Positions 13,781 through 15,727 of a stretch of 24,619 nt of DNA are shown piece after piece. A model generated the notes under the pieces. The model searched no databases. It saw only the letters and a program-made list of their open reading frames with translations, and was not told where the DNA came from. This stretch comes from a virus: positions 1 through 24,619 of IMG/VR virus record IMGVR_UViG_3300032050_000775; one strand, given 5' to 3'. The translations under genes were made by a program, and so were the position numbers. How positions within the stretch are numbered: position 1 is the first letter of the stretch; the number at the start of each line of letters is the position of its first letter.

Positions 13781-13856
13781 TGGCGAACCGAGTAGGAGTC
13801 GAACCTACAACCTACGGATTTGGAATCCGTTGCTCTGCCAGTTGAGCTACCGGAAC
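13781..13856 (-). tRNA. tRNA-Trp(CCA)
   Basis: A 76-nt cloverleaf with encoded CCA. D stem GCTC/GAGC, anticodon stem ACGGA/TCCGT with loop TTCCAAA (anticodon CCA, Trp), 5-nt variable loop, T stem GTAGG/CCTAC with loop TTCGACT, and discriminator G73 as in bacterial tRNA-Trp. The acceptor stem is odd: GTTCCGG against TCGGTTC leaves two adjacent U-U mismatches at 2-71 and 3-70, with a wobble pair at 7-66. The rest is canonical. It lies at the 3' end of the - strand unit, between the other tRNA-like element and the terminator. Confidence 0.85.
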
Positions 13857-14566: not shown

Positions 14567-14611
14567 ATGTATGTCCTTTCAGTTGGTTGTGCCGACATTG
14601 GCGAAGAGATG

Positions 14612-15106
14612 TTACCACATGTCAGGCCACCAACGGTTACCTTTTGATGTGTTGTCGCTTGCAGGCAACAGTTGTAGATTAGCTTCACAATGAAGACCAC
14701 ATACTGTATCACTCCGTAATGGAACAATATGGTCTACGTGTAGGTTGAGTCCTGTTCGGTTGAAAATAGTCGCAAGTTTATACATACCTCTGACCGCTTC
14801 TTTATCAACCCACGATGGTGTTGCTTTAAACTTTATCGCTTTTCGTTTTGCATTTTTAGCGTTGCTAATGTGTGGGTTGGCTTTTAGATAAGCGCTGTTT
14901 CGTTTAATGATAACGTCCTTGTTCGCATTGTAATATGCATTCTTTTGTTCGCACATAGTATCTTTGTTAGCTTGGTAATAATCGCTGTTTGTTTTTTTGC
15001 AGCATACCTTACACTCAGAGTTAACACCATGTTTACAACTTTTATGTTTATAAAATTCAGCAACACCCTTCTCAACCCCGCATTTCGTACACACCTTTGT
15101 CAACAT
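14612..15106 (-). CDS. Free-standing HNH endonuclease with zinc finger
   Basis: A 164-aa nuclease. I start it at the ATG at 15106, which has AGGAAAAG just upstream; the longer frame reaching 15187 would run through a structured RNA element. A zinc ribbon comes first (C6-x2-C9 and C32-x2-C35). Three 15-residue units of YY/L-x-A-N-K type follow (about 43-87), and then the HNH core: HVDHIVPL (H123-D125-H126), NLQLLP (N143) and N152. Proteins of this kind are site-specific DNA nucleases and often behave as selfish homing genes in phages. It may also serve DNA processing. It is placed directly downstream of the structured RNA and probably shares its transcript. Confidence 0.82.
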   Translation of the reverse strand: MLTKVCTKCGVEKGVAEFYKHKSCKHGVNSECKVCCKKTNSDYYQANKDTMCEQKNAYYNANKDVIIKRNSAYLKANPHISNAKNAKRKAIKFKATPSWVDKEAVRGMYKLATIFNRTGLNLHVDHIVPLRSDTVCGLHCEANLQLLPASDNTSKGNRWWPDMW

Positions 15107-15122
15107 AACTTTTCCTATAAAC

Positions 15123-15242
15123 AAAAAAGCCTGAAGAAACCACCGCCGACATGACTGGAACTCATGCCGTTGTACATCACTGTACATTGATGGCCTCTTC
15201 AGGCTTCACTGTAGCGTCAGATGGTTCCAGCAACCAACGCTA
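15123..15242 (-). ncRNA. Structured RNA element: three-way junction with terminator-like end
   Basis: Read on the - strand, an 11-bp hairpin (15212-15242, with a UCUG bulge) is followed by an 18-bp closing stem P1 (15189-15206 with 15127-15144), which ends in a U tract (15128 to 15123). Inside P1 are P2 (15171-15186, UGUACA stems around a GUGA tetraloop) and P3 (15148-15168, 7 bp with loop GUUCCAG). Wobble pairs (three in P1, one in P3) pair only on the - strand, so that is the RNA strand. The P3 loop is fully complementary to CUGGAAC in the upstream hairpin. It lies between two genes, just before the HNH ribosome binding site. Candidate roles are terminator/attenuator, stable small RNA or leader; none is known to me. 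Confidence 0.65.
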
Positions 15243-15250
15243 TGGTGGAG

Positions 15251-15727
15251 TTATATCATAGCTTGTAGCATATGAATAGGTAGATTGTAACAGCTACTCC
15301 GAACAACATACCCGTTGTCTGGATCGACTGTTCCTTTCGCCATGAAAATGGCTTCCTCGTAGTACCGTTCTTTAGAACATACACCAAGGAACCATCCAAC
15401 ACTGTAGTCGTTCTTTATCCTTGTGAACGCATAGTAGTCACACTCTTGTGTGGTGTTTAGCTTAGCAACAGAACACATGTAGGAATCTAAAGGTTTGACA
15501 GATGTCAGTTTTGTTTTGACATCTATGGTTGTACCGTCCTTCAGCACCAAATCATAGTCGTATGTGTTAGCTAGTTCACCACCCATCACCTGTTGAGCGA
15601 TAGCTTCACCTAGAAAACCAGCTAGATTTCCCTGACCTCTAGTGATGCTGTTGTTCAATCTGCCCATCTCTGCGGCCTTATCACGTGCCTCAACAAGCAT
15701 GTCGCCTGTAACAACAACCTCAATCAC
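15251..15727 (-). CDS. PD-(D/E)XK nuclease-like protein
   Basis: A 158-aa protein with a GTG start in a GTGA overlap with the preceding gene. The sequence has the spacing of a restriction-endonuclease fold: Glu41 in a helix (GFLGEAIAQQ), Asp59 (YDYDLVL) and then the D69-V-K71 strand (TTIDVKTK). The rest alternates strands and helices compatible with that fold. Members of this superfamily cut DNA with a metal ion; a role in host DNA breakdown, recombination or packaging-related cleavage is possible, but which one cannot be read. The fold call is inferred from motif spacing only. Confidence 0.6.
   Translation of the reverse strand: MIEVVVTGDMLVEARDKAAEMGRLNNSITRGQGNLAGFLGEAIAQQVMGGELANTYDYDLVLKDGTTIDVKTKLTSVKPLDSYMCSVAKLNTTQECDYYAFTRIKNDYSVGWFLGVCSKERYYEEAIFMAKGTVDPDNGYVVRSSCYNLPIHMLQAMI

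Follow-up and report, generated by a model that had tools for sequence, protein, structure and literature searches.

A phage RNA family with a conserved loop-loop pairing carried by homing-endonuclease cassettes

Phages commonly carry homing endonucleases as selfish genes, and to our knowledge little is known about how their expression stays low outside the T4-like phages. This question is raised by a locus in the 24,619-nt stretch of viral DNA analyzed here (the window), where an elaborate RNA element directly precedes the ribosome-binding site of an HNH gene. A reading made from the sequence alone (the sequence-only reading) had proposed an unassigned structured RNA with a three-way junction and a GNRA loop, and suggested that it could attenuate the HNH gene, act as a small RNA, or mark the boundary of a mobile insertion. 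We were interested in what this RNA is, how it moves, and which of these functions it might fulfill. The 24.6-kb contig also carries tail-fibre-like, endolysin, ribonucleotide reductase, MazG, exonuclease, and DNA polymerase genes.

Read directly, the sequence matches the proposed structure letter for letter. The two strands of the closing stem P1 (AAGCCUGAAGAGGCCAUC / GGUGGUUUCUUCAGGCUU) form 18 bp, after which six U follow, and the inner hairpin P3 (CGGCAUGA-GUUCCAG-UCAUGUCG) has a stem of 8 bp, one more than the 7 bp stated previously. The count of four wobble pairs was correct, three of them in P1 and one in P3. The assignment to the - strand was right as well, with a predicted fold energy of -60.5 kcal/mol compared with -37.3 +/- 3.9 kcal/mol for shuffled sequences (z -6.0), clearly better than the -47.8 kcal/mol of the + strand. 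The 11 bp given for the upstream hairpin H0 hold in the minimum-free-energy (MFE) fold of the lone sequence but not in the comparative structure, where the stem consists of about 8 bp and an additional G-C and the 7-nt loop is exposed; relatives do not conserve the GGUU/AACC pairs seen in the MFE hairpin. This loop is the exact complement of the P3 loop, as had been noticed. In a single sequence such a match is modest evidence, as an 8-nt match arises in 1% of shuffles; the loop-loop pairing is proven because the relatives covary, and not from the window sequence alone.

Table 1. Features of the RNA, the endonuclease gene, and the cassette (positions in the window)
Feature	Position	Strand	Remarks
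Structured RNA	15242-15123	-	H0, P1 enclosing P2 and P3, then U tract
H0, 5' hairpin	15212..15242	-	7-nt apical CUGGAAC (15230-15224) exposed
K1, CUGGAAC	15224..15230	-	First half of loop-loop (kissing) pairing; partner K2
Conserved linker CAGUG	15211-15207	-	Precedes P1 5' strand
P1 5' strand, 18 nt	15189..15206	-	Covariation
P2, UGUACA-GUGA-UGUACA	15171..15186	-	GNRA tetraloop
P3, 8-bp hairpin with 7-nt loop	15147..15169	-	Covariation
K2, P3 loop GUUCCAG	15155..15161	-	Second half of kissing pairing
P1 3' strand	15127..15144	-	Covariation
U tract UUUUUUGUU	15120..15128	-	Intrinsic terminator end, by sequence
Shine-Dalgarno UAGGA of endonuclease gene	15113..15117	-	By sequence; relatives similarly spaced
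HNH homing-endonuclease-like gene, 164 aa	14612..15106	-	ATG at 15106, end at 14612
Gene that took up the insertion, 158 aa	15251..15727	-	No PHROG family
Candidate extended -10 box TGATATAAC	15250..15258	-	Overlaps stop codon of upstream gene
Mobile cassette, approximate	14585..15271	-	Promoter box, RNA, HNH gene, short tail; from occupied vs empty alleles

Relatives were collected from uncultured phage contigs. A search with the upstream gene yielded 80 loci, most of which (including most of L004-L081) lack the RNA and the HNH gene at this place; the near-identical L002 and the divergent L003 carry both. Pattern scans and a search with the HNH protein added further copies in L083/L115, L084/L118, L116 (two copies), L120/L030, L121, L123, L124, L126, L128, L129, L131, L135, and L164. 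L122, L133, L134, and most new loci of a later scan were discarded as chance matches. The copies comprise A-type and B-type RNAs, and a covariance model (R1) built from four B-type copies only recovers the window RNA with an E value of 6.5e-14 together with all other A/B copies.

The model-fitted alignment A5 comprises 17 copies, 16 of them distinct and including the window, and has standard pairs in 97.2% of its cells, with two-sided changes at 30 of the 46 pairs. Its covariation score of 0.633 compares with 0.215 for shuffles and at most 0.107 for slid structures. All nine model pairs of H0 vary on both sides among the relatives (93% of cells paired), as do all eight pairs of P3 (99% of cells paired), and P1, which spans 18 positions in every copy, has two-sided changes at eight pairs. 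The P2 loop is GNRA in all relatives, being GUGA, GAAA, GCAA, or GUAA. Because the loop-loop pairing was left out of the covariance model, it provides an independent test: 98.1% of the K1/K2 cells are paired and four of the seven pairs show two-sided changes, with 25 two-sided cells vs 9.3 in shuffles and a score of 0.526 vs 0.143. Eight fully complementary loop pairs occur among the 16 distinct copies (CUGGAAC/GUUCCAG, CUGACC/GGUCAG, CUAGACC/GGUCUAG, CUGAUAC/GUAUCAG, CUCGCAC/GUGCGAG, CUCGAAC/GUUCGAG, CUCGUCC/GGACGAG, and CUCAUCC/GGAUGAG). Each pair matches exactly inside the molecule it comes from; after swapping between molecules the match is incomplete, apart from one wobble case. A contact inside a single molecule is simpler to assume than one between molecules.

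The covariation thus establishes the window RNA as a conserved fold in both its secondary structure and its loop pairing. The view of the sequence-only reading that the element is more than a plain terminator was justified. An open frame that starts at 15187 and runs into the HNH gene was considered as a coding alternative and rejected, because a ribosome-binding site precedes the HNH gene itself, base changes follow the pairing, and the length of P2 varies. As anticipated, the RNA belongs to no known family: Rfam 15 gave no meaningful match at gathering or permissive thresholds, the best being mir-1803 at 19.7 bits against a cut-off of 95. BLAST against GenBank phages returned a chance match only. 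Among bacterial and archaeal genomes, the A-type pattern found nothing and the C-type pattern (see below) six chance matches inside other sequence; model R1 found nothing in 300 genomes of one arbitrarily chosen order, which says little. We found such an RNA described in none of the open-access papers searched. We consider it confirmed that this is a new, uncatalogued phage RNA family carried by homing-endonuclease cassettes, and we infer its function from the setting described in the following.

All 17 A/B copies lie directly 5' of an endonuclease ribosome-binding site at short spacing, so that the position seen in the window also holds in the relatives. The window protein matches phrog_1035 "endonuclease VII" (E 9e-27) and reaches 17 bits with Pfam HNH, below its cut-off. 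Occupied and empty alleles were compared at two sites. At the site in the window, empty alleles read ...CTTCCTATCCACC AACTAAAGGAGCATACC..., and in occupied alleles the cassette lies inside this sequence at the 3' end of the upstream gene (CCNATHCACC^AACT), replacing its last codons. At the site beside the gene starting with MAKHVIFSRN, the empty allele is interrupted likewise, and part of the site sequence (AAAGNCNGANTAANCTGT) is repeated to either side of the insertion; in L121 and L124 this flanking repeat is unlike simple homing. By this comparison of alleles, the RNA and the HNH gene form one cassette, with about eight sites occupied. The suggested boundary of a mobile insertion was correct as to position: the RNA lies inside the insertion, and its promoter box lies near the 5' edge of the cassette. 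A tRNA-Trp (CCA) gene is located downstream of the cassette at 13781-13856 (-).

The RNA has been carried to several kinds of sites, including the gene in the window, two other genes in L083 and L120, and the MAKHVIFSRN gene in L121, L123, L124, L129, and L131. In the second copy of L116, L126, and L128 it stands before a gene that, from its sequence, we take to be ThyX-like. The endonucleases behind it belong to two unrelated HNH families, being EndoVII-like in most cases and HNH_3/AP2 (Pfam HNH_3, 71 bits) behind one L116 copy. At one site, A-type and B-type RNAs precede related endonucleases (L121/L124 vs L129/L131), which argues that the RNA has been swapped as a unit; together with the two HNH families, this makes it a portable module that does not depend on any one protein. 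It is not obligatory, as is seen from L191, the nearest HNH relative (61% identical) to lack the RNA.

On the 5' side, conservation between the cassettes begins with the candidate -10 box. A box (TGNTATAAC or ATATAAC/ATATACC) is found upstream of all RNA copies even as the flanking DNA differs from site to site; in all copies its TATAAC/TATACC core and the hairpin are about 8-10 nt apart, and in most the core is preceded by TGN. A consensus promoter scan of this strand of the window found no -35/-10 pair and did not report the box, and the putative promoter of the cassette thus rests on the conserved TATAAC box and not on a scan match. At the other end of the RNA, P1 is a G+C-rich stem followed directly by the U tract, as in an intrinsic terminator; a simple terminator scan with a loop limit of 8 misses this combination. 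The U-tract core CTTTTTTGTTT is conserved among the relatives, and four of them have CTTCTTTG.

Other endonuclease cassettes in these phages show different arrangements. In L208 and L217, TTGACA-N17-TATAAC is followed at once by the ribosome-binding site, with no RNA, whereas in L206, L210, and L219-L224 a different conserved leader comes after TTGACA-N17/18-TATAAC, and either its CCCCUGAC or its hairpin loop is able to pair with the Shine-Dalgarno region. These cassettes lend support to the putative promoter of the RNA-bearing cassettes. This second leader (GGAYGAAAAGGGUAGCUCCCCUGACA[stem-loop]CUAGUCCUUUAU) precedes other HNH genes at L210:1400-1490 (+), on the reverse strand of L206, and in L219-L224; its potential pairings by the loop or CCCC are CCGAUU/AAUCGG and CCCCUGAC/GUCAGGGG, and it has no match in Rfam. 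The cassette leaders here take at least three forms, namely none, Shine-Dalgarno-pairing, and terminator type, and such variants make leader control look like a general theme in these phages. Nine or ten relatives, though not the subgroup of the window, could form a further helix of 8-10 pairs between the 5' end of the RNA and the Shine-Dalgarno region, which would hide the ribosome-binding site; own and swapped pairings differ little in score, which is a weak control, and we keep the helix as no more than a lead. It would join the ~9 nt immediately following the TATAAC box to UGUUUGUAGG at the ribosome-binding site in L121, L123, L124, L129, L131, L128, L164, and relatives, with compensatory changes in L164 and L128.

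The most likely task of the RNA, judged from sequence comparison, would be to limit transcription of the endonuclease gene. We propose, at what we see as roughly an even chance, that it is a cis-acting terminating leader keeping endonuclease expression low, perhaps conditionally. Beyond the terminator form, the mechanism would be as follows. Transcription would start at the TATAAC promoter of the cassette or arrive from the upstream gene, and the nascent RNA would fold into H0 and the P1/P2/P3 domain, with the covariation-supported 7-bp loop-loop contact locking the fold. P1 and the U tract would end most transcripts just before the ribosome-binding site, such that the endonuclease would come from the read-through fraction only, presumably leaving the cassette harmless to its phage. 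Because the tertiary fold is conserved, one may speculate that a fold-recognizing factor, e.g., a phage or host protein, tunes termination or stability. The main argument for such a leader comes from the three leader forms, and the T4-like precedent, the unity of the cassette, the fixed position before the endonuclease ribosome-binding site, and the two HNH families are in line with it. Against it stand RNAs built to the same plan but lacking an endonuclease, L191 without the RNA, the promoter-less scan, and the missing antiterminator: a conserved alternative helix, mutually exclusive with the terminator as in a riboswitch or attenuator, was sought in 15 copies and none was found, so that a switch would be hypothetical.

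The three functions offered originally are not fully separable, although attenuation fits best. The small-RNA proposal draws its weight from RNAs of the same plan that we call class C (L125, L127, L130, L132, L138, L139, L141, L226, L233, L235, L237, and L238). These have a 5' hairpin (GUUG...CAAC or GUUGC...GCGAC), GUGAAG, and a stem ending in GGCUUUUUU, and their loops pair exactly, over 7-8 nt, with a strand beside an inner hairpin; five such pairs are GUAGUUGU, GUUGCAC, GUAACGGU, GUCGAAGU, and GUGGAAA with their complements. They start right behind promoters of their own (TTGACA...TAGAAA/TAGAAT-like or TATAAT). With no endonuclease adjoining, they either follow cro-like genes or sit between scaffold-like and capsid-like ones; we presume these names from the sequences, except for the annotated cro of MW202484. 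A conserved stretch without clear coding (CCGUCAGGGCGCGUUAGCUGAUGGUCUGCAUGGACUGAACCC...) lies behind class C in L130 (7155-7330), L127, L132, L138, L226, and L237, and a different one (CGACCGUACUCCGCACGAAAGCAGGGG...) in L233, L235, and L238. Class C is likely, though not proven, to be homologous to A/B. R1 reaches the tested members at 20-29 bits, but these scores are not decisive because the pattern scans that found class C used words common to A/B, and antisense copies of the palindromic stem score 16-34 bits too. If homologous, class C favors the main rival reading, an independent small RNA gene that acts in trans (with promoter, ~120-nt RNA, and terminator) and is taken along by homing cassettes while the endonuclease is expressed separately. 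We hold this to be possible yet rather doubtful, since every A/B copy found adjoins an endonuclease gene and no target RNA or protein is known. Equally tentative is the idea that A/B and class C form one widespread phage RNA superfamily, in which a 5' hairpin is locked by a fast-changing yet invariably complementary loop pairing to a terminator-stem domain, and which would act by virtue of its three-dimensional fold, either as a sensor or as a trans-acting RNA, and have been adopted by homing endonucleases as a portable control module.

It is improbable that the RNA is solely an elaborate transcription insulator keeping transcripts of the upstream gene out of the cassette. The terminator form, the site at the 5' side of the cassette, and the near-constant U tract would suit this role, but a plain hairpin would suffice for it, and even highly divergent sequences retain the loop pairing, the GNRA loop, and the P1 and P3 lengths. 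Two molecules could also be held together by fully complementary 7-nt loops, in the way kissing loops act in GOLLD/ROOL complexes (PMC12286853). Nevertheless, a complex in which the RNA binds its endonuclease or other copies of itself appears very improbable, given that the same RNA type precedes two unrelated HNH families and that complementarity within each molecule explains the data.

Among known systems, HEARO or IscB omega RNA, which we take to be RF02033, is likewise a noncoding RNA that a mobile element carries beside the gene of an HNH-containing nuclease, but the window RNA of ~120 nt has no Rfam match, and the 164-aa protein is far too short for an IscB-type nuclease. The phi29 packaging RNA and GOLLD/ROOL are also phage-encoded with conserved loop-loop contacts, whereas they differ in size, position, and topology, again with no Rfam match for the window RNA. 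Riboswitch and attenuator leaders share the order of promoter, structured RNA, terminator, ribosome-binding site, and gene, but no antiterminator helix was found here, and the RNA has no known ligand or Rfam match. With intrinsic terminators it shares the stem and the subsequent U tract, except that its 18-bp stem closes a junction with a conserved loop-loop pairing. The RNA is small and its covariation support strong, and it directs attention to a broader class of phage RNAs that is still uncatalogued. A portable, tertiary-structured leader common to unrelated endonucleases would, if true, be a new type of control device. In T4-like phages, terminators and hairpins control endonuclease expression (I-TevI, segB, and mobE), mobE and segF having terminators (PMC2988022). 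The nearest precedent is seg43(25) of Aeromonas phage 25, where the base of a very stable hairpin abuts the ribosome-binding site without hiding it (PMC2988022). As in these T4-type cases, a structured RNA stands directly before a phage endonuclease gene in the window; unlike their single hairpins, it consists of a three-way junction and a kissing hairpin ending in a U tract, and it is carried from site to site before two endonuclease families.
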